NCBI RefSeq assembly: GCF_003095655.1
Contig: NZ_CP029151.1
Location: 1,239,001-1,303,000 of the forward strand
DNA length: 64,000 nt
Direction of reading: 5' to 3'
DNA from: Dokdonia sp. Dokd-P16
GTDB lineage: Bacteria > Bacteroidota > Bacteroidia > Flavobacteriales > Flavobacteriaceae
Shown here: piece by piece, positions 48 through 62,151 of the stretch
Layout: each line of letters starts with the position of its first letter
Numbering within the stretch: position 1 is the first letter of the stretch
Notes under the pieces: model-generated
The model's database searches: none
What the model saw: only the letters and a program-made list of their open reading frames with translations
Told to the model about the DNA's origin: nothing
Translations under genes and position numbers: made by a program

Positions 48-61
48 GCTTTCGCGAAAAC
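48..61. repeat. Dispersed palindrome, copy 1 (intergenic)
   Basis: GCTTTCGCGAAAAC (one mismatch to the 14-bp form) lies between the partial upstream gene and its terminator. Confidence 0.85.
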
Positions 62-65
62 AAGA

Positions 66-90
66 ACCGCCTCAATCGAGGCGGTTTTTT
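66..90 (+). terminator. Rho-independent terminator
   Basis: A stem of AACCGCCTC pairs with GAGGCGGTT around an AATC loop and is followed by a run of T on the plus strand. It most likely ends the gene that enters the window from the left. The reverse strand has a broken T run after the stem, so it may also serve the minus-strand gene ending at 111. Confidence 0.85.
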
Positions 91-110
91 TATGCGTATT
101 ACTTTCGTTA

Positions 111-914
111 TTAAAGGTGCACCGTAAACTCGTAATTTAAAACACTATCAACCGTAATACTATCTATCTGCTTAAAGGATAAGGATTCTTCTTGACTATA
201 TTCTGGCGGCTCAAGACCCAACTCAATAGCCTGCTTTGTATAGTATTCTTTTTTTGTAGGGTGACTAGGAGACACTGCATTTATAATGTGACCAAAGGCA
301 TTTTGCTTGATTATCGCTGTTAAAATCCCAATGCAGTCATCGCGATGTATCATATTAACTGGAGCATCACCATTAGTTAGACCTTTACGACCCGCTAAAA
401 ATTTAACAGGGTTTCTACTGCCACCAAACAATCCTCCAAAACGAACAACCGTTGTCTCAAAAGCAGGGGTATTAAAGAATATCTGCTCTACATCATACAA
501 CTGCTTAGCTGCATTTGTATCAGGTTGTGGAGCATCTTTCTCTGTCACCTTACCTTGTGCATCATCATAGACGGAGGTACTACTTATAAGAATCACCTTT
601 TTAACCTCAGACCGTTCAATCAGATGTAGAAAATGCGCCATTTTAAGAGCATAATTTGCACCTGTGTTCTTTCTCAAACCTGGCGGGATCATAATGAGTA
701 GCACATCTGTATCTGCAAGCAAAGTTTCTACTAAACCTGAGACACCAGTTTCTGCTATTATTACGGGATATGCAGCGATATTGCTTCTTGTAAGATCTTT
801 TGCCTTCTCTGCATCTGTCACACTTCCTTTTACTGTGTACCCCATAAGATGGAGTCTCGTAGCAAGTGCTTTACCAAGCCATCCTAAACCTGCAATTGTA
901 ATTTTTTTATTCAT
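111..914 (-). CDS. NAD(P)-dependent epimerase/dehydratase (SDR, YeeZ-like)
   Basis: This 267-residue protein is an extended short-chain dehydrogenase. The N-terminus has the dinucleotide-binding loop GLGWLG at residues 9-14 after the first beta strand. A segment SSTSVYDD near residue 110 corresponds to the Ser/Tyr active-site region, and FGGLFGGSR near 160 follows the family pattern. The overall plan matches the YeeZ group of atypical SDRs, whose substrates are mostly unknown. The gene is monocistronic, with a terminator just past its end. The family call is firm; the substrate is not known. Confidence 0.8.
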   Translation of the reverse strand: MNKKITIAGLGWLGKALATRLHLMGYTVKGSVTDAEKAKDLTRSNIAAYPVIIAETGVSGLVETLLADTDVLLIMIPPGLRKNTGANYALKMAHFLHLIERSEVKKVILISSTSVYDDAQGKVTEKDAPQPDTNAAKQLYDVEQIFFNTPAFETTVVRFGGLFGGSRNPVKFLAGRKGLTNGDAPVNMIHRDDCIGILTAIIKQNAFGHIINAVSPSHPTKKEYYTKQAIELGLEPPEYSQEESLSFKQIDSITVDSVLNYEFTVHL

Positions 915-1007: not shown

Positions 1008-3374
1008 CTATTTTACACCAGCGTTGATGCTATCTTTTTTTGCTTTCGCGAAAGCGTACTCAGCAATATCAATCGTACGCTCAACTATGATCGCGTCGTT
1101 AGGTACAAATGGTTTTGGCATCGTAGTATTAGGCCTCGCAGAAACTGTAAATTTTGGGTTTTCTAATAAATCATACGAGAACTCCTTGAGCGTAAACTTA
1201 GGACTCACACCTTCTGGCACTGCAAATGTAAACTCCAGCTTGTCATTTTTACCTCTGTAGTAGCTCAAAATCCCTTTACTACCTCGTTTCTTATAAAGCG
1301 TCTCAGTACTATCTGCATTTACAGCAACACCATTCCAAGAAATGTGCTGTAAAGGAGTTTCTATAGCTGTATACATACGCATTTGATGCACAGTACGATT
1401 AGGTGTGACTGTAAGTGTCATGTACCTCAACCCATCTACCAGCGTGTCTTTATCTAGCTGCACCGTACTTTCTGGCAAATCAATTACAGCAGTTTCCTTT
1501 GCATAGGTATATGGAGTATTATACTTACTACCTGCAGCATTACCTATGTACATAGCTGCTTGTTCTGGGTTTTCTCCTAGATATCCTTTGGTCCAGTCAT
1601 CAAGCGACTTATTATATGTTGCCCAGTATGCTCTATTTGTATCTGTATTTTGATAATAAATAAGACTATTAGGTGCTTGACGATCTACTGCAGCATCTGA
1701 GTTCATGTGAGCAATCCCAAAACAAATGAGTGCTCCTAGCAAACTCAAATATGCCAAGAACTTCTTGTTTCTATATAAGCCAAATACTGGCAATACTAAT
1801 CCAAAAAGGAGTATTAAAAAGATAACACTCGCATAGAGCATATCTGGTCCTAAACCTACAGGAAAGAATTGCACTAACGGGGCTAATAAAAATATAGCTG
1901 GAGCACACAGTAAGACAAGTAACAGCACACTAGGCTTACGTTGCGCTATAAGCACATAGAAAGCAATTAACCCAAAATATACAGGAATGATAAAAAAGGC
2001 AGCACCTTTTAAATAAACGGCAACAAGTATATTAATGATGAGCCACATCGCAAGTGGAGCTACCATATTACTTGCCGTGTTTTGTGCCACGGTAAGCCTA
2101 TGATACATACCCATGCATAAACTAAAGCCTAGTAACGCAAAGGCAATAATATACCAGTGACCATTATAGATAAAAACGGGCAGCATGTCTTCATACGTAG
2201 GATATATATACTTTAATAACTCCCACAAGAGGTAAAAAAGCCCTCCTCCTAAGATTAATGTAAGGAAGAAAGTGCTGAAACCTCTAGCAACATATTTTCT
2301 CCTCAATTGTTCCTTTTTAAATCCATAAACTAGTAATACTATAAACAGGACAATCGCAATTGCTAGCATAGGCCAGATCCATGAAAATGGATATGCAACA
2401 AAGTTGGCCACAGCGGCATCAAAGTACACGTAATCTTCATCTGACTTTATGTTGGTGAGATCTGCAGATGCAAAATGTGTGAGCAAAGGCATTAGATAGG
2501 TTCCTTGGTGCTCTAGTGTCTTGCGATCCAAGTTTTCAAAAGTGTCATTTACCGTATGATAGTCAAAATGATCATCTATAAATGCAAAGAAAAAACCGTC
2601 GATATCGCCATCTTCTCTCAAAACAGTCGAGTCCGTATCATTAGGCAACATTTTGTAAATACTATACATTAATGAAGTCCCTACTGGGTACTCCACTCCT
2701 GCTTCCATAAATCCATTAATGAGATTTTTATTACCATGATTAGTCTCTACAATCATATTAGAAGGACCACCACTACCACGTGCTTCAAAGTTGAGGGCAA
2801 GTCCCACGTTTTTTGCCCATGGGTGTTCATCTACAAAAAGCTGAGCGCCATCTAGGCCAATTTCTTCGGCGTCTGTGATGCAAATTATGATATCATTTAC
2901 AGGAGTGACTCCGCTAGCAAGGTATGCTCGTATACTTTCTAGTATGGTTACCACACCAGAACCTGCGTCACTAGCGCCATGAGATGCGCTATGCGGTGCA
3001 CTATCATAATGTGACATAAGTAATAACGCTTTACCATCGCCACTTCCTTTTATACGAGCTATGATATTTTGAGGCTTTGTAAGATTACTGTATCCATTCC
3101 ATTCCTCATTTACAAAGCCTTCTTGCACTTGCGGCTCTAGACCAAGCTTGCGAAGTTCTTGTACTATATATTGCTGCACTTCTGTATGTGCCGCTGTACC
3201 CACAAAATGCGGCTTTGCCGAGATTACTTTTAAATGTGATAATGCCCTTGCGGTAGAAAATTCTGTAAGCGGAGTTTCTTTGTCACTTATTGTCTTAGGC
3301 ATGAGTGAGTAAAAGCTCACAAATACTAAAAACAACACTAGAATAAATGAAATAATATGGGATAAACGTTTCAT
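1008..3374 (-). CDS. M28 family zinc peptidase with multi-span membrane domain
   Basis: This 788-residue protein starts with one membrane segment (residues 8-28). A peptidase M28 domain follows, with zinc-ligand motifs HYDS, SDAGSG and DAEEIG in order and a late HYHT-type His (DDHFDYHTVND). Residues about 330-560 hold eight or so hydrophobic helices, and a soluble C-terminal domain follows. This resembles the ER metallopeptidase/Fxna branch, predicted to cleave peptides on the periplasmic side. I chose the ATG at 3372-3374 over an upstream TTG at 3378-3380. The dispersed palindrome lies in the last 15 residues, read as EYAFAKAKK, suggesting a tolerant C-terminal tail. Confidence 0.85.
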   Translation of the reverse strand: MKRLSHIISFILVLFLVFVSFYSLMPKTISDKETPLTEFSTARALSHLKVISAKPHFVGTAAHTEVQQYIVQELRKLGLEPQVQEGFVNEEWNGYSNLTKPQNIIARIKGSGDGKALLLMSHYDSAPHSASHGASDAGSGVVTILESIRAYLASGVTPVNDIIICITDAEEIGLDGAQLFVDEHPWAKNVGLALNFEARGSGGPSNMIVETNHGNKNLINGFMEAGVEYPVGTSLMYSIYKMLPNDTDSTVLREDGDIDGFFFAFIDDHFDYHTVNDTFENLDRKTLEHQGTYLMPLLTHFASADLTNIKSDEDYVYFDAAVANFVAYPFSWIWPMLAIAIVLFIVLLVYGFKKEQLRRKYVARGFSTFFLTLILGGGLFYLLWELLKYIYPTYEDMLPVFIYNGHWYIIAFALLGFSLCMGMYHRLTVAQNTASNMVAPLAMWLIINILVAVYLKGAAFFIIPVYFGLIAFYVLIAQRKPSVLLLVLLCAPAIFLLAPLVQFFPVGLGPDMLYASVIFLILLFGLVLPVFGLYRNKKFLAYLSLLGALICFGIAHMNSDAAVDRQAPNSLIYYQNTDTNRAYWATYNKSLDDWTKGYLGENPEQAAMYIGNAAGSKYNTPYTYAKETAVIDLPESTVQLDKDTLVDGLRYMTLTVTPNRTVHQMRMYTAIETPLQHISWNGVAVNADSTETLYKKRGSKGILSYYRGKNDKLEFTFAVPEGVSPKFTLKEFSYDLLENPKFTVSARPNTTMPKPFVPNDAIIVERTIDIAEYAFAKAKKDSINAGVK
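1042..1055. repeat. Dispersed palindrome, copy 2 (in the M28 peptidase gene)
   Basis: Exact GCTTTCGCGAAAGC; read as AFAKA at residue 775 of 788. Confidence 0.95.
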
Positions 3375-3430
3375 CGACAAGGTAATCTATTGGTTTGGTG
3401 CTTGTAAAATACGAATTTATGAGCTTGAGT

Positions 3431-3448
3431 ACGCTTTCGCGAAAGCGT
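3431..3448. repeat. Dispersed palindrome, copy 3 (intergenic)
   Basis: Full 18-bp form ACGCTTTCGCGAAAGCGT between divergent M28 and CBS genes. Confidence 0.95.
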
Positions 3449-6785: not shown

Positions 6786-6803
6786 ACGCTTTCGCGAAAG
6801 CGT
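6786..6803. repeat. Dispersed palindrome, copy 4 (intergenic)
   Basis: Full 18-bp form directly following the T tract of the CAP-gene terminator. Confidence 0.95.
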
Positions 6804-9185: not shown

Positions 9186-9199
9186 GCTTCCGCGAAAAA
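9186..9199. repeat. Dispersed palindrome, copy 5 (intergenic, degenerate)
   Basis: GCTTCCGCGAAAAA, two to three mismatches, directly after the aldehyde dehydrogenase terminator. Confidence 0.65.
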
Positions 9200-11629: not shown

Positions 11630-11643
11630 GCTTTCGCGAAAGC
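11630..11643. repeat. Dispersed palindrome, copy 6 (intergenic)
   Basis: Exact 14-bp form upstream of the OsmC gene. Confidence 0.95.
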
Positions 11644-14897: not shown

Positions 14898-14911
14898 GCT
14901 TTCGCGAAAGC
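14898..14911. repeat. Dispersed palindrome, copy 7 (intergenic)
   Basis: Exact 14-bp form 26 bp before the -7 box of the flavin reductase gene. Confidence 0.95.
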
Positions 14912-16347: not shown

Positions 16348-16713
16348 ATGATTGTATACGGAGTTTGTAAAAGTTGCCATAACCACTTGAGCCTAAATGT
16401 TCTTGCAGGAACACGCACAGAACTCTCAAAACAAATAGGTGTAAGCATTTCAAAAAAATGTAATCGCTGTGGCGTTACTAATACCTTTACTATAAACCAA
16501 CTCAAAGCCAAACTCTCAAAACGCATACGTCATGCGGTTTTCGAGGTTGCAATTGTGGGTGTCGTTGTATTATTTGCTAGCTGCTACTTTATCTCAGATA
16601 TAACCTACATCGCATTAATAATTGCGCTTTATATAGCACTTGCAACGGGCTATGTGTGGTATACACGAAGAAATTTTCAGGTGATTGATACTTTTAATAG
16701 AAGCAAAGCCTAG
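16348..16713 (+). CDS. Small zinc-ribbon membrane protein
   Basis: This 121-residue protein begins with a two-knuckle zinc ribbon, CKSCHNHL and CNRCGVTN, of the kind found in rubredoxin-like sensor domains. A basic stretch (KAKLSKRIRH) and two membrane helices follow (about residues 68-85 and 88-105). No known function was recognised. Its end overlaps the longest reading of the aat gene, but with the GTG start chosen for aat the two genes are 31 bp apart and probably co-transcribed. Confidence 0.65.
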   Translation: MIVYGVCKSCHNHLSLNVLAGTRTELSKQIGVSISKKCNRCGVTNTFTINQLKAKLSKRIRHAVFEVAIVGVVVLFASCYFISDITYIALIIALYIALATGYVWYTRRNFQVIDTFNRSKA

Positions 16714-16744
16714 TTATCTTTGTGTACATCTATTAACAATACTC

Positions 16745-17401
16745 GTGCTTTTACTCCCAGAAGATCAACATTGGAATAATGACCCTTGGTTTCCAGAACA
16801 CCATCTGGCAGACGAGGAAGGACTACTTATGGTAGGCGGTGATCTCACTACAGACTGGTTACTACTCGCATACAATTCTGGCATCTTCCCTTGGTATAAT
16901 GAAGGACAGCCTATTTTATGGTGGACGCCAGACCCGCGTATGGTAGTAAAACCTAGTGACGTACATGTATCAAAATCTATGCGCAAAGTGTTACGAGACA
17001 ATCACTTTACAGTTACCTATAACCAGAATTTTCTAGAAGTCATACTTGCTTGTAAACGCATTAAGCGCAACGGTCAAGATGGCACGTGGATTACTAATGA
17101 TATTATAGATGCATACCTCAGATTACACGAGCTAGGTCATGCTATTTCTGTTGAGGTTTGGCATGATGAAAAATTAGTCGGAGGTCTTTACGGGATTGAT
17201 CTCAAGGAGAAGGGAATATTTTGTGGAGAGAGCATGTTTGCAACCATGAGCAATGCTAGCAAGGTGGGATTTATTACGCTTTCGCGAAAGCTAGAAAAAG
17301 AAAATTACCACCTCATCGATTGCCAGATGTATACAGACCACCTAGCGAGCCTAGGTGCCGTTGAAATTCCACGAGATTTATTTCTAGAATATCTACAGTA
17401 G
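16745..17401 (+). CDS. aat: Leucyl/phenylalanyl-tRNA-protein transferase
   Basis: This enzyme moves Leu or Phe from tRNA to N-terminal Arg or Lys of proteins, marking them for ClpS/ClpAP. Landmarks are FPEHHLADEEGLLMVGGDL, YNSGIFPWYNEGQPILWWTPDPR, HEVGHAISVE-like ELGHAISVEVW, GLYGI and CGESMFA. I use the GTG at 16745 (218 residues), because homologs start about ten residues before the FP motif; the longer TTG reading at 16685 overlaps the upstream gene. The dispersed palindrome lies near residue 180, read TLSRKL, replacing a helix segment without a frameshift. Confidence 0.92.
   Translation: MLLLPEDQHWNNDPWFPEHHLADEEGLLMVGGDLTTDWLLLAYNSGIFPWYNEGQPILWWTPDPRMVVKPSDVHVSKSMRKVLRDNHFTVTYNQNFLEVILACKRIKRNGQDGTWITNDIIDAYLRLHELGHAISVEVWHDEKLVGGLYGIDLKEKGIFCGESMFATMSNASKVGFITLSRKLEKENYHLIDCQMYTDHLASLGAVEIPRDLFLEYLQ
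17278..17291. repeat. Dispersed palindrome, copy 8 (in aat)
   Basis: Exact 14-bp form, read as LSRK at residue 180. Confidence 0.95.
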
Positions 17402-32417: not shown

Positions 32418-32431
32418 GCTTTCGCGAAAGC
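32418..32431. repeat. Dispersed palindrome, copy 14 (intergenic)
   Basis: Exact 14-bp form upstream of yicC; the only closely paired copy in the window. Confidence 0.95.
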
Positions 32432-41928: not shown

Positions 41929-41946
41929 ACGCTTTCGCGAAAGCAT
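41929..41946. repeat. Dispersed palindrome, copy 17 (intergenic)
   Basis: ACGCTTTCGCGAAAGCAT between csbD and envC, 11 bp past the envC stop. Confidence 0.95.
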
Positions 41947-43189: not shown

Positions 43190-43958
43190 TGAGCTTGATT
43201 TCTTGGTATCCAGAAGGAATAGAAAATGGCATGCGTACTTCTCCGTTTAAATCTATATCACGATACTCTATTTGTACTTGAGACTGGTTCTTACCGTCAT
43301 CTGCAAGGATGTCTAATAAGAATGGAAATATCTTGGTTCCTACTTCTTTATAATCGCCATAAGCAATATCAAGCGATCCTCCATTATCCATTTGCTCAAT
43401 ACGCTGCTCTTGAGTAACAAAGTTTTGAGTATTAATGCCAAAAAATAGATTGACTTTATCAAGTTGCTTTCTTGGGGTGACCTCGTAGCCATTTTGAGTT
43501 TCTTTAAAACTATACTTCCCTTCTCTCAAGTCATACACAGTTTGTCCTGTAAGTAACCGCTGTAGTTGGAAAAAGTCTATTTCTACACCTAGATACTGAC
43601 TTAAAAATGTAAAGTCACCATCAAAGTATTGATTGTTGAGCTTATCATAAAACTGCACCTTCTGTGGAGTTATTAAAGCACGAGCACCAGAAAAGCCTAT
43701 CAAGGATGCATTCATCCAGATTTGTTTATCCTTTTCAATACGGATAGTAAGAGTAACTGTAGGCTTTGTACCTTTTTTATCTCTGTACTTGATTTTTGTA
43801 CGAGCGTCAAAAGTTGTGAAATCTATCGCATTATTATAATATTCCTTTACAAGACGCTTAGAAGAAATATCTTCTACTGTCTCTGTGGTAGTAACTTTCT
43901 TTGCACCACCGCAACTTGCGAGCACTATTACTAATAATATGTAGCCTAGCTTCTTCAT
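43176..43958 (-). CDS. DUF4292 lipoprotein
   Basis: This 260-residue protein has a lipoprotein signal ending VLASC at residue 16. The body matches DUF4292: YNNAIDFTTFDARTKIKYRD, RALITPQKVQFYDKLNNQYFDGDF and IDFFQLQRLLTGQTVYDL. A LolB/LolA-like lipid-carrier fold is suspected but unproved. Its start overlaps the TPR stop codon by one base. The gene context with envC, TPR and flippase suggests envelope assembly. Confidence 0.85.
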   Translation of the reverse strand: MKKLGYILLVIVLASCGGAKKVTTTETVEDISSKRLVKEYYNNAIDFTTFDARTKIKYRDKKGTKPTVTLTIRIEKDKQIWMNASLIGFSGARALITPQKVQFYDKLNNQYFDGDFTFLSQYLGVEIDFFQLQRLLTGQTVYDLREGKYSFKETQNGYEVTPRKQLDKVNLFFGINTQNFVTQEQRIEQMDNGGSLDIAYGDYKEVGTKIFPFLLDILADDGKNQSQVQIEYRDIDLNGEVRMPFSIPSGYQEIKLNAKR

Positions 43959-45340: not shown

Positions 45341-45349
45341 CACTTTATA

Positions 45350-47357: not shown

Positions 47358-48821
47358 TTATTTTCTCTTTACTAATCTTAATAAAAGCTCTTTTTCGCGA
47401 AAGCTTATAAAGCCTATTAATACTATAATCATACCAACTCCTACAAGATACAATGGTAAGCTCCCAACACCAAAATAATCTCTAAAACCATAGAAGAAAA
47501 CGCAAGAAAATGCAATACTCATGACTAGGTACAAAAGTATATTTTTTACATCATAAGGAACTGCTAAATGTTTACGCCCCATGAGATAAGACACGACCAT
47601 CATTAATCCATAAGCACTACAGGTAGCAATGGCACTAGCGAGATATCCTATTCTAGGTATTAATGTTACGTTTAAAACAATAGTGAGAATAGCACCGCCT
47701 ACAGAAATGTATGCACCATATCTAGTTTTATCTGTCACTTTATACCATACGGATAGCGTTTGATAAATTCCAAAAAACAGGTATGCAACGAGAATGAGTG
47801 GCACGATGTACATGCCTTCCCAATATTCTTCTCCATCGAGCAAAATCACCTTTACTACGTCTACTAATACAACATAAGCAAATAATGCTATAGAGCCTAA
47901 GACTACAAATGCCTTTGTAATCTGAGCATACATGACTTGTGCATTTTCATTTTTTGCTTCGCTAAAAAAGAAAGGTTCAATCCCTATCCTGAAAGCAGTT
48001 GCAAATAAGGTCATACCAATGGATAATTTATAGCAGGCACCGTAAATAGCTACTTGCCCTTTGGCAATATGATCTGGTAATAATTTTTCTAATAAGATCT
48101 TGTCAAAAGATTCATTTATTGCAAAAGCAAGGCCTGCTAGCAATATGGGTGCTCCGTATGCAAGCATCTTCTTCCACAAGTCTACATCAAAAGACCACTT
48201 TACAAAATATGGTCTGATCACGATTAAAAAGGTGAGCATACTAGGTAAGAAAAGTGCAATAAAAACAAGCTCTATCTTATCTGTAGGTAACCAACTAGAA
48301 ACACCATCTAAACTAGGCAGCCATACTAATAAGATTACAGAGAGTCCCGTTGAGATAACAACATTGAGTAATTTAATAAGTGCATATGTTCCCGACTTTT
48401 TTTGCGCTCTCATGTATGCAAAAGGGATTACGGTAAGCGTATCAAATGCAATAATGAGGATGACCCATCGCCAGTACGTAGCAGGTACATCTGATATTTG
48501 TGATAGCGTATCAATACCCAAAAATGCTATAATCGTGAATGCAACTGTAGAAACTAGAAGCGTAATGAGTGATGTAGATAGCGTCTTAGCACTATGCTTA
48601 TCGTCATTAAAAAATCTAAAAAAAGCGGTCTCCATCCCGTAGGTAAGAAGCACATTGAGAATCATTACGTATGAAAATACGATAGTCACCTCTCCAAAGG
48701 CTTCCTTATCTGGTAAATATCCAGTATAGAGACGTGTGAGTAAAGCCGTAAGCACGCGCGGCAATACCGTCGCTAGACCATACACAAAGGTGTGTTTGAA
48801 AAGGCTTTTAAGAGAACTCAA
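47358..48821 (-). CDS. Polysaccharide flippase (oligosaccharide transporter, MOP superfamily)
   Basis: This 487-residue membrane protein has about fourteen helices and the family start SLFKHTFVYGLATVLPRVLTALLTRLYT. It moves lipid-linked glycans across the inner membrane. The start is TTG (48819-48821); no in-frame ATG lies upstream. The dispersed palindrome in a degenerate form falls near the C-terminus, read as SFREKEL. It is the first gene of the envelope operon that ends with envC. Confidence 0.9.
   Translation of the reverse strand: MSSLKSLFKHTFVYGLATVLPRVLTALLTRLYTGYLPDKEAFGEVTIVFSYVMILNVLLTYGMETAFFRFFNDDKHSAKTLSTSLITLLVSTVAFTIIAFLGIDTLSQISDVPATYWRWVILIIAFDTLTVIPFAYMRAQKKSGTYALIKLLNVVISTGLSVILLVWLPSLDGVSSWLPTDKIELVFIALFLPSMLTFLIVIRPYFVKWSFDVDLWKKMLAYGAPILLAGLAFAINESFDKILLEKLLPDHIAKGQVAIYGACYKLSIGMTLFATAFRIGIEPFFFSEAKNENAQVMYAQITKAFVVLGSIALFAYVVLVDVVKVILLDGEEYWEGMYIVPLILVAYLFFGIYQTLSVWYKVTDKTRYGAYISVGGAILTIVLNVTLIPRIGYLASAIATCSAYGLMMVVSYLMGRKHLAVPYDVKNILLYLVMSIAFSCVFFYGFRDYFGVGSLPLYLVGVGMIIVLIGFISFREKELLLRLVKRK
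47391..47404. repeat. Dispersed palindrome, copy 19 (in the flippase gene)
   Basis: TTTTTCGCGAAAGC, exact core, read as FREK near the C-terminus. Confidence 0.85.
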
Positions 48822-48868: not shown

Positions 48869-49399
48869 CTAGTTACGACCACCACGTGGTTTCTGACTAG
48901 GGTAGGCTTTAGTTTCTTTCTCTACAACGTTGGCGATTTTGGCATATTTAAGCACTCCATTATCACGGTATGTTATACCAGCTTCAGATGGAGATAAGAT
49001 AAATGGAAATGCATCTTTTTGAACAGGAGGAGTATTTACCGCCTCATCTTCTGCATTATCAGACATTACTACATCTTGATTAACACCTTGATCAGTTCTA
49101 AAACGTGCTACATAATTATCACTACCACGCATAATTTTTCCTACGCTTTCGCGAAAATATACGTTTTCTAATACCACATTGGCTTCTAATGCTTCTATGT
49201 CTAAATAGAACTCTATTCCCGAGCCTCCCTGAGCCATACCAGCAACGTACGTATTATAATATGCTGGACTTGATGCAAAAGCTGGTTGAGATAGTACCAT
49301 AGTTTGTTGCGTATCTGACACAACTGTAGACTTACATTGTGTGAGTAATAATGAGGAGAATCCTATGCTTAAAAGCGCTACTAGTTTGTACATTTTCAT
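48869..49399 (-). CDS. Lipoprotein of unknown function
   Basis: This 176-residue protein starts at ATG 49397-49399 (MKMYKLVALLSIGFSSLLLTQC) with lipobox LLTQC; a longer reading adds a poor N-terminus. The body has AGMAQGGSGIEFYLDIEALEANVVLENV and the dispersed palindrome read as YFRESVGK near residue 83. The tail (SQKPRGGRN) is basic. No family was recognised. It lies alone between atpG and the flippase gene. Confidence 0.7.
   Translation of the reverse strand: MKMYKLVALLSIGFSSLLLTQCKSTVVSDTQQTMVLSQPAFASSPAYYNTYVAGMAQGGSGIEFYLDIEALEANVVLENVYFRESVGKIMRGSDNYVARFRTDQGVNQDVVMSDNAEDEAVNTPPVQKDAFPFILSPSEAGITYRDNGVLKYAKIANVVEKETKAYPSQKPRGGRN
49145..49158. repeat. Dispersed palindrome, copy 20 (in the 48869-49399 lipoprotein gene)
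   Basis: GCTTTCGCGAAAAT, exact core, read as FRES at residue 83. Confidence 0.9.
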
Positions 49400-49531
49400 A
49401 ATTGGTTGTTTTGAGTTTATATTCAAAACCCTTGCCATAAAGGTAGTAAAGATTATTCTTGTAAAAACTAGTTAAAGCAATAAGCTACATTGACTTTATA
49501 ATACAATGGCAATTCTCTAATAATATCCATT

Positions 49532-49598: not shown

Positions 49599-50462
49599 CT
49601 AGTTATTTAAAGCTTCTGCTCCACCTACGATCTCTAAAATTTCGTTTGTAATAGCCGCCTGACGTGCTTTGTTATATTGTAATTTAAGCGCATCTCTAAG
49701 CTCTGTTGCGTTATCTGTTGCTTTGTGCATGGCAGTCATACGCGCACCGTGTTCTGATGCTACAGAGTCTCTAATTCCTTTAAAAAGTTGCGTTTTTAAA
49801 GCTTTAGGGATTAATCCTTCAACTATCTCCTCTTTAGAAGGCTCAAAAATATAATCTGCAGTTGCTGTTGCTTCTTCTTGTACGGTTGCTACGATAGGTA
49901 AAAACTGCTCTGGAGTTACAATTTGCGTTGCTGCGTTCTTAAATTTATTATAGATAATATCAATGCGATCGTATTCTCCAGCTTCAAAACGAGCCATTAA
50001 ATCTTCTGCAATTGCGGCTACATTATCAAAAGTAAGATCATCGTAAATATCATTGTTATTTTCGATTACCTTAAAAGTCTTTGCTAGAATAGCATCTGCC
50101 TTTTTTCCTAATGTAACTAAGTGCACTTCTTTACCAGCATACTTTGCGGCAACACGTGCATTTACACCTTTAATAATGTTTGTATTAAAAGCTCCTGCAA
50201 GACCTCTGTTTGATGATATAGCTACTATAAGTACCTTTTTTATCTCACGATCTTCTGCAAGTTTACTTCCAGAATCTGCATCTAATGTTGCGCTTAAGTT
50301 CTGTAAAAGCTCAGTAAGCTTATCAGAATATGGGCGCATTGCTGTAATTGCATCTTGTGCTTTCTTCAACTTTGCAGCAGATACCATTTTCATGGCACTC
50401 GTAATCTGCATCGTAGAAGATACCGATGAAATTCTGTTTCTTATTTCCTTTAAGTTTGCCAT
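49599..50462 (-). CDS. atpG: ATP synthase subunit gamma
   Basis: This 287-residue protein is the central rotor stalk of F1. It begins MANLKEIRNRISSVSSTMQITSAMKMVSAAKLKKAQ and ends RQAAITNEILEIVGGAEAL, both characteristic. It is the last gene of this operon; the beta and epsilon genes are absent here, as is usual in Bacteroidota, where they lie elsewhere. Confidence 0.98.
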   Translation of the reverse strand: MANLKEIRNRISSVSSTMQITSAMKMVSAAKLKKAQDAITAMRPYSDKLTELLQNLSATLDADSGSKLAEDREIKKVLIVAISSNRGLAGAFNTNIIKGVNARVAAKYAGKEVHLVTLGKKADAILAKTFKVIENNNDIYDDLTFDNVAAIAEDLMARFEAGEYDRIDIIYNKFKNAATQIVTPEQFLPIVATVQEEATATADYIFEPSKEEIVEGLIPKALKTQLFKGIRDSVASEHGARMTAMHKATDNATELRDALKLQYNKARQAAITNEILEIVGGAEALNN

Positions 50463-50563: not shown

Positions 50564-50577
50564 TTTTTCGCGAAAGC
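50564..50577. repeat. Dispersed palindrome, copy 21 (atpA-atpG spacer)
   Basis: TTTTTCGCGAAAGC, exact core, 10 bp past the atpA stop codon. Confidence 0.88.
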
Positions 50578-52185: not shown

Positions 52186-52199
52186 GCTTTCGCGAAAAT
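52186..52199. repeat. Dispersed palindrome, copy 22 (atpH-atpA spacer)
   Basis: GCTTTCGCGAAAAT, exact core, 22 bp before the atpA start codon. Confidence 0.9.
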
Positions 52200-52226: not shown

Positions 52227-52763
52227 TTATAAACTATTACTAAATTCTCTTTTTAATTTGCCTAACTGGCTAGCGATACTCGCATTGTATTGCGTATCAC
52301 CTACACGTAGTACAAAACCTCCTATAATGCTCTCGTCGATTACATTAGTTAAAGTTACGTTTGTACTTCCAGTAAGCTCAGTCACTTTTGCTAGCACTTT
52401 AGTTTCTAGCTCTGGTGTTAAAGCTACTGCGGTTGTTACCGTTGCAGCCTCAATTTTGTTTGCTTTATTATATTCTGTAATAAAACTTTGTGCTACGCCG
52501 CCTAACAAGTTAGCTCTTTTATTATCTACAAGAACATCAATAAGACCAAGAGTCTCTTTTGTTCCGTCTGTAAATACTTGACGTAGTACTGCACGTTTAT
52601 CATCTGTTTTGATAATCGGACTGTTAAGAGCATTGCGAAGACCTTTACTTCCTTCTAGCGTTGCTGTAACAGATTTCATATCATTTAAAACTGCCTCAAT
52701 AGTACCATTATCTTTTGCAAGATCTAGTACTGCTTTTGCATATCTTATTGCTGCTCTGCTCAT
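52227..52763 (-). CDS. atpH: ATP synthase subunit delta
   Basis: This 178-residue subunit links F1 to the b stalk. It starts MSRAAIRYAKAVLDLAKDNG, has NSPIIKTDDKRAVLRQVF, and the C-terminal signature VDESIIGGFVLRVGDTQYNASI. Confidence 0.97.
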   Translation of the reverse strand: MSRAAIRYAKAVLDLAKDNGTIEAVLNDMKSVTATLEGSKGLRNALNSPIIKTDDKRAVLRQVFTDGTKETLGLIDVLVDNKRANLLGGVAQSFITEYNKANKIEAATVTTAVALTPELETKVLAKVTELTGSTNVTLTNVIDESIIGGFVLRVGDTQYNASIASQLGKLKREFSNSL

Positions 52764-53648: not shown

Positions 53649-54839
53649 TTAAGTGAAGTTCTTTCTAATAACTTCTGTATCCTCTATCGCTTCACCATGC
53701 TCATCATGTAACTCCTCGTCATGATGATCATCTGCTACAGCCATACCAATAAATAATGCTGACAATGTAGTAAATATATACGCCTGTAAGAATGCCACTA
53801 GCAATTCTATAAGCATAATAAATAGTGATAAGAACAATGATACTATGGTAGACCCTGCTACGCTAAGTGAATCTTGTAATAAGATTCCCACCGCAACAAG
53901 ACTCATAACAACAGTGTGTCCTGCCGTGATGTTTGCAAATAAACGTACTAATAGTGAAAATGGCTTAATAACCAATGTACCTGCAAGCTCGATAATACCT
54001 AATAATGGTCTAAATGGCCACGGAATACCTGGCATCCACAACATGTGACCCCAGAAGTGTTTATTACCACTAAATACGTAAATCACTAGTGTAATCACAG
54101 CAAGTGCTGCAGTTACCGCAATCTGACCTGTAACGTTAAAACCAAATGGCATTAACCCTACAAGGTTAAGTATCCAGATAAAGAAGAATACTGTAAGAAG
54201 GTATCCTGTAAATTTTCTGTAGCTCTCTCCAATGTTTGGCTTTGCGATCTCGTCTCTTACGTAAATTACTAGAGGCTCAAGTACTCGTGCAAATCCTGTT
54301 GGGATATTTTTTTTCTTGTATTGTCTTGCTAATCCAGAGAACCAGATTAACATTAAAAGTCCTATTAATAAGATACCAAAAACACTTTTTGTGATAGAAA
54401 GATCAAAAGGTTTTGAAGCATTTGTAGCGTGTTGATCTTCATCATAAGTAAGACTTGTTGCTCCCGCCTCAAGTTCATAGATACGACCGTGATTTTTCAC
54501 AAAGCGGCTTTCTCCTTTAGTTACGATTACCTGTCCTTCATCATCATGATGAAACTCTGAAGACATGAATGCAGTAAAACCATTTTCTCCCCATAACATT
54601 ACAGGAAGTGGGAAACCCCAGTGATGCTCTACTCCATTATCATCAAAAGTTGAGAATAAATGGAAGTCGTGAGAATCCTTTAAGTGATGCTGTATATAAG
54701 CCTTTACCTCCTCTTTAGTATTAACTGGATTTCCTTTTTCTCCAGTCTTTCCAGCATCCGCTTTCGCGAAAGCGTAAAAGGGAATACTAAGAACAAAAAC
54801 TAATACTAAAAGTGTGATTGATTTTGATGCTACCTTCAT
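53649..54839 (-). CDS. atpB: ATP synthase subunit a
   Basis: This 396-residue subunit is long for the family. A signal-peptide-like start (MKVASKSITLLVLVFVLSIP) leads into FYAFAKADAG, where the dispersed palindrome is translated. A periplasmic domain of about 130 residues rich in His and Asp follows, then the usual helices with the essential Arg in SLLVRLFANITAGHTV, LIELLVAFLQAYIFTTLSA, and a C-terminal tail DDHHDEELHDEHGEA. Extended subunits of this kind are known in Bacteroidota. The AFA at the palindrome could act as a signal-peptidase site. Confidence 0.94.
   Translation of the reverse strand: MKVASKSITLLVLVFVLSIPFYAFAKADAGKTGEKGNPVNTKEEVKAYIQHHLKDSHDFHLFSTFDDNGVEHHWGFPLPVMLWGENGFTAFMSSEFHHDDEGQVIVTKGESRFVKNHGRIYELEAGATSLTYDEDQHATNASKPFDLSITKSVFGILLIGLLMLIWFSGLARQYKKKNIPTGFARVLEPLVIYVRDEIAKPNIGESYRKFTGYLLTVFFFIWILNLVGLMPFGFNVTGQIAVTAALAVITLVIYVFSGNKHFWGHMLWMPGIPWPFRPLLGIIELAGTLVIKPFSLLVRLFANITAGHTVVMSLVAVGILLQDSLSVAGSTIVSLFLSLFIMLIELLVAFLQAYIFTTLSALFIGMAVADDHHDEELHDEHGEAIEDTEVIRKNFT
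54760..54773. repeat. Dispersed palindrome, copy 23 (in atpB)
   Basis: Exact 14-bp form, read as AFAKA at residue 24, at the end of the signal-peptide-like segment. Confidence 0.95.
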
Positions 54840-55933: not shown

Positions 55934-58477
55934 TTAATTTGAATCTTGTGCTTTGTAAGCATCAAGATTTTTATGCATTTGAATTATTTTATAATTCTCT
56001 GAAGCGATTACCATACTAGGTAATGTTATCAAAATATCTTTATTAGTACTAAGCAACTCTACGAGACCTTCTGCTTGCCTGCGGCTACTCAAAAAATGAA
56101 CTACAACAAACGATTGTTGTGCATCATAAACATCAATGGAGGTTGAGAACTCTGTATAACCCACCTCATCAAAGCTTTCTAAAAGCTTTTTTTGTAAATC
56201 CTTTGCTCCTTGAATATTACTGTTATTAAATGGGTAGACTATTTTATAGTTAATTGCAATTGCCTCGTCATCAAACTGATCAAACTTCATGGTAGGCAGC
56301 GCATTTTGAAGTAAGCTTTGTGCTTTTTTTCCTTCTTCTGTGCGAGGATATGTAAGTGCTACATAGCTCAACCCTTTTTTATAAGCATCATATCCTTCAT
56401 ATCTACCAGCGACTGTTGCCTTGAGTAATTCAAATTTTGGCAAATATGGATCTCCATAAAACTGATCTATTCTTTTATTTAAATCACTCTCAAGATTTGC
56501 AAAGTTTTGATTTTGGAATCTCTTATATAATCCTTTGTACACCTCTTCTGGCGACTCTGCGTCGGCTTCTAATGCTTTGTCTGGATTATTAATGCGGGTA
56601 GCATAACGAGAGTCTGGATATTCCGTTGTGATTTTATTTTTATAAGTATTCGCTTTCGCGGAAGCGTCCATAGCCCCATACACTTGGTAGAGATTATATA
56701 ACGCAGGAAGTACCAACTTTTCATCTGGATTAAAAGTTAATAATCTTTCTAATCGCTGCGCTGCCAAAGGATATTCTTTGAACTTTTCTTTATAAATAAG
56801 CCCTAGCTGAAAATATGCAAAGTCACGTTCTTTTAATAAACTATCTACCTGCGTTTTCTCTCTTGGTAAAGTTGCAATATAATCTGCTGTAGTCATCGCC
56901 TTCTCACCATCAAGCTCAGGATTATCTAAGGCTACTGGCAAGGTGCCAGAATTGAGTGGCACAGACTGCACAGAAGATAATCTCCATCCATCTACAAGAC
57001 GACGTTTTCCCCATCTTTTTTCAAAAGACTGTTTCCCGTAAGAAACTGCTACATCATTATAGAAATAAAACTCTCCTGGCTCTCCTCCTATTGCTCCTCC
57101 TCCAATGCTTGAAGCATTGAAAAACTCATTGTTTCGTATGTTATCAATGCGCGCAATAGAATCTGCCGCTCTCTTTGCTTTAATTTGAGCAATATAGTTA
57201 TCGAAATAAGCTCTAAGCGAATCTTCAGAAAGTGTGACAAGTGCTATAATACTGTCATTGCGCTGTGTGAGGTTTTCGTAATCTATAACGTCCGTTAGAT
57301 TCTCACGCTTTTTCTTGATAGTACGATACTCACGGCTGCGATCACTTATCTTACCTATCACGCTATCATAATAAGCTCCTGCAATTTTATAAGAGGCTTG
57401 CTCAAAACTATAGTCTGCAAGTGCTAGGTAATCTCTAGAAAGCAAATAATCATCTGTACTACTTTGTCTTAACGACTTATTATAATTTGCAATAGCAGAG
57501 TCTTCTCTTCCTGTTTTCATAAAGAAGTCTGCCTTTGCATAATAGATTTTATCTAAAAACGGTCTGTTTTCACGGTTACGTACCATCTTATCTAAGCGCT
57601 CTCTCAAAATCAGAGTATCAGCTTCTTGATAATCATAATTACGTATCTGCTCTATATGAGCGTTTATGTGATACTTGCGGGGAATCTTTCTATTAAGATC
57701 AATTACTTCTTGGAATGCTAGGTTTGCACTATCCTTTTCTCCTAAACGATTGTAGAGTTGTCCCTTAATATAATTATAACGACCTCTCTCCTCAGATTTA
57801 CGAGTTAATTTTGAAGCGTCTTTAATGTAGATAAGAGCACTATCTAGTTTATTTAAATTGAGATATGCTTGAGCAAGCATAGCTTTTGCATCTGCAATGT
57901 CTTGATCCTTTAGTTTATTTTCAACCTTAAATATTTTCTCAAGGTTAGCAATTGCAACCTCATTATTTTCAAGGCGGATGTTTGTCTTTTCTTTCCAGAC
58001 TTTGGCTTGCGCTATATTATTACTTTTAGGATAGTATGCTAGTACGTAATTAAAAGCCTCTAGTGCAGGCACAAACTGCTGATCGTAATAACGTGCTTTA
58101 CCTAAAAGAAGAAAAGCTTCATCCATTTGTGGGTTACGCTCCTCACCATCTATCTTCATAGCATGGTTTTGTATTGCTTTAATAGCTTTTTCTTCGGCTC
58201 TTAAAAAATTAGGATCTCTGTTCTCCTCACCTAGTGCAGTATTTTCCTCAAAAACGATACGCTCAATGGGTAAGATATCCCAGTAATTATCATTAAAGGT
58301 TTGTACAAGCGAGCTTTTGCCTTCTTCAAGGGCTACATTACCGTTATATAAAGTATTAAACTCTGTAGTAACAGCATGGAAGTTACGACTCACAAAAGAA
58401 TCGTTCTTACGAGAACAACTCGATAGAGATAGTGTGATAACACCAGTAATGAATAAACGTTTTAAGAGTAATTTCAA
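55934..58477 (-). CDS. sprE: Gliding motility and type IX secretion lipoprotein SprE/PorW
   Basis: This 847-residue lipoprotein has the signal MKLLLKRLFITGVITLSLSSC and many TPR-like repeats (YYPKSNNIAQAKVWKEKTNI, LNLNKLDSALIYIKDASK). The start of the mature protein (FVSRNFHAVTTEFNTLYNGNVALEEG) is the SprE/PorW signature. SprE is needed for type IX secretion and gliding. The start codon is TTG: an in-frame TAA lies two codons upstream and there is no ATG for the signal. A variant of the dispersed palindrome is read as DASAKAN near residue 606, in a TPR turn. Confidence 0.93.
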   Translation of the reverse strand: MKLLLKRLFITGVITLSLSSCSRKNDSFVSRNFHAVTTEFNTLYNGNVALEEGKSSLVQTFNDNYWDILPIERIVFEENTALGEENRDPNFLRAEEKAIKAIQNHAMKIDGEERNPQMDEAFLLLGKARYYDQQFVPALEAFNYVLAYYPKSNNIAQAKVWKEKTNIRLENNEVAIANLEKIFKVENKLKDQDIADAKAMLAQAYLNLNKLDSALIYIKDASKLTRKSEERGRYNYIKGQLYNRLGEKDSANLAFQEVIDLNRKIPRKYHINAHIEQIRNYDYQEADTLILRERLDKMVRNRENRPFLDKIYYAKADFFMKTGREDSAIANYNKSLRQSSTDDYLLSRDYLALADYSFEQASYKIAGAYYDSVIGKISDRSREYRTIKKKRENLTDVIDYENLTQRNDSIIALVTLSEDSLRAYFDNYIAQIKAKRAADSIARIDNIRNNEFFNASSIGGGAIGGEPGEFYFYNDVAVSYGKQSFEKRWGKRRLVDGWRLSSVQSVPLNSGTLPVALDNPELDGEKAMTTADYIATLPREKTQVDSLLKERDFAYFQLGLIYKEKFKEYPLAAQRLERLLTFNPDEKLVLPALYNLYQVYGAMDASAKANTYKNKITTEYPDSRYATRINNPDKALEADAESPEEVYKGLYKRFQNQNFANLESDLNKRIDQFYGDPYLPKFELLKATVAGRYEGYDAYKKGLSYVALTYPRTEEGKKAQSLLQNALPTMKFDQFDDEAIAINYKIVYPFNNSNIQGAKDLQKKLLESFDEVGYTEFSTSIDVYDAQQSFVVVHFLSSRRQAEGLVELLSTNKDILITLPSMVIASENYKIIQMHKNLDAYKAQDSN
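56652..56665. repeat. Dispersed palindrome, copy 24 (in sprE, one mismatch)
   Basis: GCTTTCGCGGAAGC, read as ASAKA near residue 606. Confidence 0.85.
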
Positions 58478-59526: not shown

Positions 59527-59534
59527 AATCTATG

Positions 59535-61004
59535 TTATTTAGTTTGTTTATAAGCTTCAAGCGTTTTATACTTCTCGCTCTTATATATTTTAATAATCTG
59601 GTCAAACACTTTATCTCTAAAGGCAAAACCTATCAATCCTACTATAGCAACAAGCGCATACCCTAGCATAGGCCCTACTGTAAAGTGGCCTATAGCATAC
59701 AAAGCCATTGGTCCGAGCATTTTAGGCAAACTCACGAGTAGCGTTTTAAGGTTAAAAGAGCTCTTATCACCAAAAGCTTTTTTACCACTCTGCAAATCTA
59801 TAGGTGTTTTTATAAACGCTCCACCTAGTAATACTAAGTGTGCATTAATTCCCATATTAAAAATGGCACCTACAATGATGGCGAGTAGCACATCTACCCC
59901 AAAATAAACATAAGGAATACAAAGCATCGCAGAGATAAGAGTCGCAATTACTACCAGTAACCACTTTGATTTTAAATACTCTTTGTAAGCGATATTTTGC
60001 GTCATCATGAGCGGGTAATAAGCACTATCCCAAGAAGGAACAAACTGACCAAAACTGAACAGAAACCCTCCTGACACAAACACTGCCGCAAACATCATCC
60101 AGAATGGACCACTATATACCTCTATTGCATCTCCAAAAAACAAGAATCCATAAAATAAAAACATGATACTCATAAAGACCGTAGTCTTAGAGCGTTTATT
60201 TCTCATTATGAGTCTAATATCATTTTTGAGAAACGTAGACTGCTTCCCAAAACGGTCTAGCCATCCTAAATCTCCACCTGACGCCTGACTTACTTTTTTT
60301 GCAAGACCCGCATCAAGGTATAATCGTGCTAAGAAATATTTAAAAGCGATGGTTGCGACCACAACAAGTAATGCTATGGGGAAAATAACCGTCCACTTAA
60401 CTTCATACAAACCTTGAAAAAATGGCTGAGTGAAAGCAGTAATATCAAAATATTCATAATACTGAGCAGCACCTAGAAGTGCAAAAAGCACTCCCATACC
60501 TATTACTAACCACAATTTATCATTCAAAAAGACATTGATAAAGTTATTTGCATATATAAAACAGAACATTGCAATATGCCACACCAATACTCCTAGCGGA
60601 TTAAAGCCCTGCGCGATTAATACAATAGAAAATGGAATAAAGAAAAACGCATGCATCCAGTTCCAGAAAGAAAGTACCGTCTTGCCTAATGCAAATTTTA
60701 CAATCTTAGTTTTCTTAAAAGGTAGCAGCAATAGCGGCTTGATGTTTACCACTGGCATTTTCTGACCCATATATCTAATAATAAGATCTCCCACTACGTA
60801 ATAAATCATAAACATGTTTACCGTAGCAAAAGGCTCGAGTTTCGCCTTTTCAAGACCAAAATATAGGAATGAACCCATCATTCCCAACCACAAAACCATT
60901 GATATCACTCCAAAAATCATCAAGATCTTGAGAGCGAGGTTGGTTTGAAAAGAAGCACTTCTAAAAAAAGCCTTCCACTCAAGGCTTATAAATTGTTTTA
61001 CCAT
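59535..61004 (-). CDS. DUF5687 ABC permease
   Basis: This 489-residue membrane protein has about twelve helices. It begins VKQFISLEWKAFFRSASFQTNLALKILM, typical of Bacteroidota DUF5687, which pairs with an ABC ATPase as here. It probably exports a compound or lipid; no substrate can be named. The start region is divergent from the PaaE-like gene. Confidence 0.88.
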   Translation of the reverse strand: MVKQFISLEWKAFFRSASFQTNLALKILMIFGVISMVLWLGMMGSFLYFGLEKAKLEPFATVNMFMIYYVVGDLIIRYMGQKMPVVNIKPLLLLPFKKTKIVKFALGKTVLSFWNWMHAFFFIPFSIVLIAQGFNPLGVLVWHIAMFCFIYANNFINVFLNDKLWLVIGMGVLFALLGAAQYYEYFDITAFTQPFFQGLYEVKWTVIFPIALLVVVATIAFKYFLARLYLDAGLAKKVSQASGGDLGWLDRFGKQSTFLKNDIRLIMRNKRSKTTVFMSIMFLFYGFLFFGDAIEVYSGPFWMMFAAVFVSGGFLFSFGQFVPSWDSAYYPLMMTQNIAYKEYLKSKWLLVVIATLISAMLCIPYVYFGVDVLLAIIVGAIFNMGINAHLVLLGGAFIKTPIDLQSGKKAFGDKSSFNLKTLLVSLPKMLGPMALYAIGHFTVGPMLGYALVAIVGLIGFAFRDKVFDQIIKIYKSEKYKTLEAYKQTK

Positions 61005-61098
61005 AATTACAGGTTATTTAGCGAGGTATAGGTATTTAAACTCTCTATAATGTTACATACAAAACGCAATCGTTTGTATTTTTACAAAAAAAAACACA

Positions 61099-62151
61099 AT
61101 GGCACAATTCCATACACTTCATATACAACGCATTACACGCGTTACAGAAAAATCTGTAGCAGTAACTTTTGCTGTTCCAGATTCACTAAAAGAAGATTTC
61201 AACTTCTCTGCAGGACAATATATAACTTTAAAAACTCAAATTAATGGCGAAGAAGTTCGTCGTGCATATTCTCTTTGCAGCACTCCTCAAGAAGGACTTA
61301 CTGTTGCGATAAAAGAAGTTGAGAATGGTACCTTTTCCACGTATGCAAACCGTGAGTTAAAAGAGGGTGATACCATGGACGTTCATACACCAGAAGGACG
61401 ATTTAAAATTGAAAATTCCGCTTTCGCGAAAGCGCAAACCTACGCAGCCTTTGCCGCAGGATCAGGAATTACGCCTATTCTATCAATGATTAATACTACT
61501 TTATCACAGTCTGCAGATAGTAAATTTGTTCTAGTATACGGAAATCGCACCGAAGAAGAAGCTATGTTCCGCGATGAGTTAATAGCCTTACGTGACCAAT
61601 ATAAAGATCGTTTCTCAATAGAGTTTATTTACTCTCAAACACGAGTAGATGGAGCACATTTTGGACGTATTATGAAGGCTACAGTTAATTTTGTAGTGAA
61701 AAACAAATATGCAGCAAATGACTTTAACGAGTACTTCTTATGTGGTCCAGAAGCCATGATTAAAGAGGTTTCTAAAGTGCTTAAGGAAAACGACACCAAA
61801 GAAGAAAACATACACTTCGAACTTTTTACAGCAAGTACAGAAGAGGTGACTATTGACGCCAACCTAGATGGTAAAACTGCTATCAAAGTAGTTTGTGACG
61901 ATGAGGAGTTTGAATTTACTATGGAGAAAGATGCTGTCATTCTTGATGCAGCTTTGGATCAAGACATAGACGCTCCACATTCTTGTCAAGGCGGCATATG
62001 CAGCAGCTGTATTGCGCGTGTGACAGAAGGAACGGCCGTAATGTCACAAAACCAAATCTTAACAGACTCAGAAGTAGCCGAAGGATTAATACTTACCTGC
62101 CAGGCGCATCCTACCTCCGCATCCATTGTGGTAGATTATGATGATGTGTAG
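61099..62151 (+). CDS. paaE: PaaE-like FAD/2Fe-2S oxidoreductase
   Basis: This 350-residue electron-transfer protein has an FAD domain (FSAGQYITLKTQINGEEVRRAYSLCSTP), an NAD domain (AAFAAGSGITPILSMI) and a C-terminal plant-type 2Fe-2S domain (CQGGICSSC and CQAHPT). This order is that of PaaE, the reductase of the phenylacetyl-CoA epoxidase. The oxygenase subunits PaaABCD are not in the window. The dispersed palindrome lies in the loop between the FAD and NAD domains, read as SAFAKAQ. Confidence 0.9.
   Translation: MAQFHTLHIQRITRVTEKSVAVTFAVPDSLKEDFNFSAGQYITLKTQINGEEVRRAYSLCSTPQEGLTVAIKEVENGTFSTYANRELKEGDTMDVHTPEGRFKIENSAFAKAQTYAAFAAGSGITPILSMINTTLSQSADSKFVLVYGNRTEEEAMFRDELIALRDQYKDRFSIEFIYSQTRVDGAHFGRIMKATVNFVVKNKYAANDFNEYFLCGPEAMIKEVSKVLKENDTKEENIHFELFTASTEEVTIDANLDGKTAIKVVCDDEEFEFTMEKDAVILDAALDQDIDAPHSCQGGICSSCIARVTEGTAVMSQNQILTDSEVAEGLILTCQAHPTSASIVVDYDDV
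61420..61433. repeat. Dispersed palindrome, copy 25 (in the PaaE-like gene)
   Basis: Exact 14-bp form, read as AFAKA at residue 109 in an interdomain loop. Confidence 0.95.

Follow-up and report, generated by a model that had tools for sequence, protein, structure and literature searches.

A palindromic, evenly spaced ~50-bp DNA element of Dokdonia and two further flavobacterial genera, and its possible role as a self-DNA landmark

The results presented here establish that the palindromic 10-mer TTTCGCGAAA, which recurs throughout a 64,000-nucleotide stretch of the genome of Dokdonia sp. Dokd-P16 (NCBI RefSeq assembly GCF_003095655.1, contig NZ_CP029151.1, positions 1,239,001 to 1,303,000; "the window" hereafter means this whole stretch), is the centre of a two-fold symmetric DNA element of roughly 50 bp, and that copies of the element repel each other, being spaced more evenly than chance. 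The initial annotation of the window, made from its letters alone, had proposed a genome-wide recognition site; as far as sequence comparison can tell, hundreds to ~1200 copies in 18 genomes and strong conservation support that proposal. Because ~1000 copies are strongly preserved and regularly spaced, the cell probably reads them as a signal, and the reader is probably something symmetric with a kilobase range. By analogy with the uptake sequences of Haemophilus and Neisseria, we tentatively suggest that the element could be a self-DNA landmark of the uptake type. The genomes rich in the motif belong to the window's genus (g1), to a second genus (g26, which includes genome G273) and to a third (g206).

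Results

The motif is in several-hundredfold excess in the window and in the genome

The window, with a GC content of 37.8%, contains 22 exact copies of TTTCGCGAAA; dinucleotide shuffles (n = 100) contain a mean of 0.05 and at most 1. Fourteen of the 22 cores are extended by GC on both sides to the 14-mer GCTTTCGCGAAAGC, five copies (at 3435, 6790, 19811, 29267 and 45285) are perfect 20-bp dyads, and two further copies are perfect 16-bp dyads. Two near copies have full GC arms and one mismatch (25884-25897 and 56652-56665), and a weaker one, at 9186-9199, has three mismatches. The recount agrees with the initial annotation, which had listed 22 exact cores, three near copies with one to three mismatches and 14 extensions to the 14-mer. 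The copies are as follows; no strand is assigned to any of them.

50-59: core copy 1, intergenic; left arm cgc, right arm lost; adjoins a terminator-like hairpin (by eye)
1044-1053: core copy 2, within ORF 1008-3380 (-), Peptidase_M28
3435-3444: core copy 3, intergenic; perfect 20-bp dyad
6790-6799: core copy 4, perfect 20-bp dyad; at the opening codons of an ORF that starts with TTG, and so probably intergenic
11632-11641: core copy 5, intergenic
14900-14909: core copy 6, intergenic
17280-17289: core copy 7, within ORF 16685-17401 (+)
19811-19820: core copy 8, perfect 20-bp dyad; within ORF 19457-20179 (-)
23100-23109: core copy 9, within ORF 22266-23216 (-)
25884-25897: one-mismatch copy GCTTCCGCGAAAGC, within ORF 25800-26789 (+)
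29267-29276: core copy 10, intergenic; perfect 20-bp dyad
32319-32328: core copy 11, right arm lost; 101 bp from copy 12
32420-32429: core copy 12, intergenic
37160-37169: core copy 13, intergenic; right arm lost
39762-39771: core copy 14, in ORF 38862-39965 (-), towards its start
41933-41942: core copy 15, intergenic
45285-45294: core copy 16, perfect 20-bp dyad; near the start of ORF 43958-45343 (-), a TPR protein
47393-47402: core copy 17, near the end of ORF 47358-48821 (-)
49147-49156: core copy 18, within ORF 48869-49438 (-)
50566-50575: core copy 19, between atpA (assigned by Pfam) and ORF 49599-50462, which we take from its sequence to be atpG
52188-52197: core copy 20, between atpA and ORF 52227-52763, presumably atpH from the gene order
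54762-54771: core copy 21, near the start of ORF 53649-54839 (-)
56652-56665: one-mismatch copy GCTTTCGCGGAAGC, within ORF 55934-58477 (-)
61422-61431: core copy 22, within ORF 61099-62151 (+)
61402-61451: example of the full ~50-bp element, the 10-bp core with ~20 bp per side

Copies 11 and 12 (32319-32429) form an exceptional close pair, the left member of which lacks its right arm. The two copies that flank atpA (50566-50575 and 52188-52197) are both kept in five of six genomes of the window's genus, with one copy in the sixth, and a single copy stands at nearly the same atpA place in two of three g26 genomes and in the g206 genome.

The window's genome (G000, a single contig of 3,623,447 bases) contains 1074 copies of TTTCGCGAAA, against 10 of its reversed form (AAAGCGCTTT). 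Within one 400-kb block the motif occurs 128 times, compared with a mean of 0.45 and a maximum of 4 for 319 other palindromic 10-mers of equal GC content. The density in another stretch is similar (first 100 sites over 385 kb). The motif occurs about once per 3-4 kb in this genome and is somewhat sparser in the two related genera. These figures bear out the several-hundredfold excess that the initial annotation had estimated, and neither of the two outcomes it had named as contrary, Markov-like genome counts and equal enrichment of control palindromes, is observed.

The motif is abundant in three genera of the family

All 18 genomes of the genus that were searched carry 481-1195 copies (reversed control, 9-23), and the 21 genomes of the same draw from outside the genus carry 0-8. 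Family-wide, among 397 genomes, the 14-mer exceeds 400 copies in six genomes of three genera (808 and 857 in g1; 578, 609 and 664 in g26; 408 in g206), and the other 391 have 0-19; phylum-wide, among 247 genomes, more than four copies are found in the window's own genome only. Eighty named Flavobacteriaceae loci (1.54 Mb) contain the 10-mer once, and a search of the same loci for dialects of the motif (palindromic 10-mers with at least two G/C and at least three copies per locus) yielded none that resembled it.

In a tree of three ATP synthase proteins, g206 clusters with g1 and with the motif-poor genus g160, and g26 comes out just outside a group to which many motif-poor genera also belong (the tree is given without support values). 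The patchy distribution may reflect inheritance from a common ancestor followed by repeated loss, or else spread of the system that reads the motif by transfer. Among the papers listed by searches for the motif letters and for the topic, none described the motif; PMC8034619 gives the 10-mer in a context of absent words of the human genome, with no flavobacteria.

The core is flanked by ~20-bp arms of constrained composition

The initial annotation had correctly described a palindromic core but had overlooked ~20 bp more on each side of it. In blocks of two members of the window's genus (257 sites), C content on the strand running toward the core is ~7% at positions -6 to -20 vs. ~17-20% farther out, both sides being alike. 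The fraction of C in the arms is 0.059 between genes (0.168 outside the arms) and, in called genes, 0.070 on the coding strand (0.185 outside) and 0.098 on the template strand (0.200 outside); the steps GG, GT and TT are enriched. C-poor arms are a statistical property, single window copies ranging from 0 to 6 C per 15 bases. The arms are sharper in G273 (94 sites, 400 kb), with T at -6, -12 and -14/-15 in genic and intergenic copies alike, and these T-rich positions are the same in two genera. Arm information over -6 to -20 is 3.69 bits in G273 and 1.97 bits in g1, compared with a mean of 0.20 and a maximum of 0.36 bits for random positions in G273, and it is near background beyond -20 in both genera. 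For the third genus, where 60 kb gave 11 sites only, the arm effect is weak (C 0.17, G 0.31).

Arm identity is 0.72, vs. 0.76-0.78 in distant flanks; since the arms are less conserved than the flanks, it is arm composition, and not arm sequence, that is kept. Left and right arms show no pairing with each other beyond expectation, and the order of T to the left and A to the right of the core is opposite to that of a bidirectional terminator. Half-sites outside the palindrome are mostly near or below chance, the exceptions being GCGAAAGCG (8 vs. 2.2) and CGCGAAAGC (5 vs. 2.2), which could derive from decayed palindromes.

Copies are spaced more evenly than chance

Four 400-kb blocks of the window's genus contain 11, 9, 10 and 8 neighbours closer than 1 kb, vs. 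36-40 expected when sites are redrawn with coding and non-coding proportions preserved, and the coefficient of variation (CV) of the spacing is 0.71, 0.57, 0.54 and 0.67, vs. 1.03-1.05 (0 of 1000 simulations as low). In G273, none of 93 intervals is below 1 kb (21 expected; simulated least, 12) and the CV is 0.47 (simulated 1.01; least, 0.78). The blocks of all five genomes thus have fewer sub-kilobase neighbours than any of 1000 simulations.

Gene calls are naive longest-ORF calls, and coding and intergenic counts are accordingly approximate. About half of the copies lie in called genes, and density is ~7-fold higher between genes, with 55 of 128 sites in the 10% of the G000 block that is intergenic. 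Copies in genes favour the reading frame that encodes AFAKA (39 of 73 in G000; 31 of 51 in G273). The largest gap in the G000 block is 20.4 kb without a copy (L031-L032; G000:C1:1087439-1107878).

Copies are conserved within the genus and turn over between genera

Comparison of G000 with G016 yielded 91 alignable sites of 128, of which 73 are intact, 12 are changed gap-free near the core and 6 are gapped; core identity is 0.930 and flank identity 0.759. In the reverse direction, from G016 to G000, 74 of 86 sites are intact. Intact sites number 110 of 118 in G006 (core identity 0.993, flanks 0.931) and 99 of 103 in G008, the block of which includes a run of N, and 61 of the 88 sites alignable in all three relatives are intact in all three. 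These counts omit sites closer than 300-400 bp to a block end, and also those that no alignment spans (37 of 128 for G000 vs. G016). Few sites can be aligned across genera: G000 keeps 3 of 7 G273 sites intact, G016 keeps 4 of 7, and the comparison run the other way with G000 gives 3 of 9. We conclude that site positions turn over.

The mode of change differs between coding and non-coding sites. When G000 and G016 are compared in both directions, the relative is short by at least 10 bases within ~40 bp at 1 of 18 changed coding sites, which indicates that coding copies are gained and lost mainly by substitution. At 5 of 12 changed non-coding sites the relative is short by 10-31 bases, and the missing lengths (10, 14, 16, 26 and 31) have no common unit size. 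The statement of the initial annotation that the motif is not an insertion element is supported by the mostly gap-free changes in genes; between genes the alignments would also fit insertion or deletion, although of no constant length.

One-mismatch forms with good arms number 11-17 per 400 kb, compared with 124-133 perfect copies, and most of the mismatches are at the third T. In the G006 block (L051-L070), five of eight changed copies carry C-to-T at the outer core C. G006 has 5 one-mismatch forms of this type and its three relatives have 0, 0 and 1, while the count for G273 is 3 of 13; the excess in G006 possibly reflects strain-specific methylation or mutation bias. In two of the four genome pairs compared, sequence divergence increases at distances of more than 2 kb from a site, a trend that is weak and confounded.

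Some phages and islands carry the motif with its arms

The few copies in motif-poor genera are often clustered, and the same 933-bp spacing recurs in several genera. Comparison of 17 such loci showed that 12 share pieces 67-97% identical, all 12 of which also match G000 or G006; the remaining five have no such relation. Two of the 12 that were read encode CusA-type efflux proteins, copper- and cadmium-family ATPases and multicopper oxidase, with RteC in one. The related loci (L111-L118, L120-L122 and L129) are motif-bearing loci, metal-resistance islands where read, in otherwise motif-poor flavobacterial genomes.

At least 120 stretches of viral contigs contain the 14-mer; among the matches listed, 109 have a single copy, most of which may be due to chance, and 11 have two or more. 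Twenty virus records chosen for several or long-form copies have 2-8 copies each, with none of the reversed control in 19 of 20. Among their proteins are matches to capsid and portal of the HK97 type, to portal and transposase of the Mu type, to terminase, and to a primase akin to the one in Flavobacterium phage 6H. These records were retrieved via the motif itself and are a motif-selected sample of phages; the motif is absent from four related phages of other flavobacteria (158.6 kb). The C-poor arms are kept in both settings (0.094 vs. 0.203 outside for 40 distinct phage copies; 0.101 vs. 0.187 for 34 copies at the 17 loci). Three phage groups, HK97-like (52 of 105 ORFs of four records used), Mu-like and 6H-like, encode an integrase or a transposase. 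Because these three groups carry integration genes, we dropped the phage copies as an argument against an uptake drive; the temperate phage HP1 of Haemophilus likewise carries uptake sequences. Motif content might assign motif-rich hosts to uncultivated phages (L362, L183, L364, L243 and other virus loci).

Five protein families do not separate motif-rich from motif-poor genomes

We searched for candidate trans factors in 12 motif-rich and 18 motif-poor genomes. C5 methyltransferase (PF00145) is absent from 7 of 12 motif-rich genomes, G000 included; PF01555 is above cut-off in 2 of 12 and has no match over cut-off in 10 of 12; and both are absent over cut-off in 6 of 12 (G000, G004, G006, G010, G013 and G273). 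ParB_N has a single match in 11 of 12 motif-rich genomes, with no extra ParB there, and hence no Noc-type paralogue of this family is present in those genomes. PDDEXK_1 matches are found in all 30 genomes, two of them in 26 of 30, and a ComEC-type gene in 12 of 12 motif-rich and 17 of 18 motif-poor genomes. None of the five families separates rich from poor genomes. The two PDDEXK_1 matches of the window's genome are neighbours (G000:C1:1405027-1410968), and we take the pair, from domain and size, to resemble AddB and AddA.

Discussion

Among the analogies offered by the initial annotation, that with uptake sequences appears to be the best fit, the motif sharing most features with this class among known kinds of element. 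In the mechanism that we propose, a two-fold symmetric (dimeric) protein would read the element as a landmark of self DNA, with the core as contact site and with T/G-rich, C-poor arms that may ease bending or melting. Cells would preferentially take up and recombine fragments bearing the element, the recognition and uptake steps being supposed and no receptor having been found, and element-bearing alleles would spread by molecular drive. Such spread would leave roughly one copy for each fragment length and would make close pairs rare, and any DNA resident in the chromosome, including prophages and islands, would come to carry copies. The wider proposition, that the motif marks a palindromic self-recognition signal in which a 50-bp element is read by a dimeric machine and, via drive or selection and independently of DNA methylation, acquires ruler-like spacing both on the chromosome and on replicons of long-term residence, and that it is the first such signal in Bacteroidota in the literature searched, seems to us plausible and only just short of probable.

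As points in favour of uptake we count the several-hundredfold excess, substitution in genes, even spacing, extended arms, genus-limited occurrence, the location of about half of the copies in called genes with one frame favoured, the phage and island copies, three of the phage groups having integration genes, and a ComEC-type gene in 12 of 12 motif-rich genomes. The excess is on the scale of uptake sequences and HIP1, not of Chi: observed and expected counts are 1008 and 151 for Chi, 438 and 3 for a pasteurellacean uptake sequence, and 5648 and 5 for a HIP-type 10-mer (PMC1939737). Haemophilus influenzae uptake sequences are also reported to be evenly spaced (Karlin, cited in PMC1939737; PMC7811141), and the Haemophilus uptake sequence consists of a core and AT-tracts (PMC7811141). 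Natural transformation with a preference for own DNA is reported for Riemerella columbina, which the authors of that study assign to the same family (PMC7965970), and R. anatipestifer is reported to transform without pilus homologues (PMC8459023).

Several points weigh on the other side. The competence of motif-rich species is only presumed in the uptake reading, and Flavobacterium johnsoniae was non-competent in the Riemerella study (PMC7965970). ComEC, being also present in 17 of 18 motif-poor genomes, does not discriminate, divergence is not clearly lower near sites, and the site-free stretches may simply be accessory DNA. One-mismatch forms are few, apparently a steeper drop than in uptake sequences, for which a graded series of mismatches is reported. 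In H. influenzae close pairs are frequent, 23% of strong sites being less than 100 bp from another (PMC7811141); here they are nearly absent, with none of the 93 g26 intervals shorter than 1 kb. The main departures from uptake sequences are palindromy, few close pairs and more even spacing.

These departures make an intracellular architectural role almost as likely, and we regard it as possible, if on the doubtful side. Here a dimeric nucleoid-associated or segregation protein would bind ~1000 symmetric sites as an architectural or replication landmark, one site would be needed every few kilobases, and selection at each locus would favour coverage and oppose crowding. Such a role suits the two-fold symmetry, with half-sites that mostly stay near chance where they stand outside the palindrome, the high per-site conservation (110 of 118 in G006; 73 of 91 in G016), the 50-bp extent, and phage and island copies with the same C-poor arms, as well as a spacing repulsion that exceeds that of known uptake sequences (PMC1939737, PMC7811141). 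There is no candidate protein for it: ParB_N, the one nucleoid-protein family that the search covered, has a single match in 11 of 12 motif-rich genomes, a result that also weakens the parS/Noc analogy of the initial annotation.

A Chi-like site acting in both directions, at which an AddAB/RecBCD-type nuclease would stop degrading and start recombination, so that every resident replicon needs one per few kilobases, we consider improbable. Known Chi sites are asymmetric, whereas the core here is a perfect dyad with half-sites mostly near chance, and PDDEXK_1 proteins, although matched in all 30 genomes, are equally present in motif-poor ones (helicase parts were not checked). In favour of this explanation we count the position of the T/G-rich strand 5' of the site, the side on which a recombinase would load, the frequency of ~1 site per 3-4 kb, and the over-representation of Chi in phages without recombinases (PMC3784561); against it, enrichment of Chi in E. 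coli is only about 6-7 fold (PMC1939737).

Very improbable is a reading modelled on HIP1, in which an orphan DNA methyltransferase would enrich its target sequence via methyl-directed repair or selection. A palindrome in several-hundredfold excess would be expected of it, HIP1 is said to propagate by substitution (reference listed in PMC4390886), and the C-to-T changes at the outer C in five of eight changed G006 copies point the same way; against it, these forms number 0, 0 and 1 in the other three genus genomes, and PF00145 and PF01555, the two methyltransferase families covered by the search, are both missing over cut-off in six of 12 motif-rich genomes, which leaves HIP1-type methylation by these families, and with it that analogy of the initial annotation, unsupported. 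A C5 or PF01555 methyltransferase and a second ParB are weakened as candidates by their absence from most motif-rich genomes.

Least credible of all are a mobile repeat with a palindrome, of the REP/RAYT or MITE type, and a hairpin that terminates transcription. The ~7-fold intergenic density excess and the 10-31 bases missing at 5 of 12 changed non-coding sites can be adduced for such a reading; it is opposed by mixed non-coding lengths, by only 1 of 18 changed coding sites with at least 10 bases missing, and by the location of about half of the copies in called genes (RAYT genes were not searched). An insertion element was likewise weakened by conservation and gap-free coding changes, the intergenic case being ambiguous, and a terminator or hairpin by unpaired arms, by a T-left/A-right order wrong for a bidirectional terminator, and by the copies beside atpA inside the ATP synthase cluster.

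Few systems are known that write a short motif about a thousand times per genome. This one lies in another phylum, is symmetric, has 20-bp arms of constrained composition and ruler-like spacing, and is common to some phages and islands. One 50-mer offers a direct handle on whatever reads the element, and may help to explain how Flavobacteriaceae distinguish own from foreign DNA in transformation.

Comparison with known systems places the motif as follows. The uptake signal sequences (USS) of Pasteurellaceae and DNA uptake sequences (DUS) of Neisseriaceae, known from Proteobacteria, resemble it in their ~1000-2000 copies per genome, gain by substitution, even spacing, genic and intergenic location and clade specificity, and USS also in having a core with AT-rich extensions. 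They differ in not being palindromic and in that an uptake role has been shown for them and is drawn by analogy for the motif; in H. influenzae, moreover, close pairs of USS are common and spacing is less even. Cyanobacterial HIP1 (GCGATCGC) is likewise a highly iterated, clade-limited palindrome gained by substitution, but is 8 bp long, differs from the core TTTCGCGAAA, is linked to orphan methyltransferases, and lacks the 20-bp arms and strong spacing repulsion found here. Chi also occurs about once per few kilobases and on some phages, but is much less enriched and lacks the symmetry of the core. Noc-binding sites, parS and matS are palindromic chromosomal protein sites present in tens of copies or fewer per genome, unlike the motif, which has about a thousand evenly spaced copies; 11 of 12 motif-rich genomes have no extra ParB_N match.

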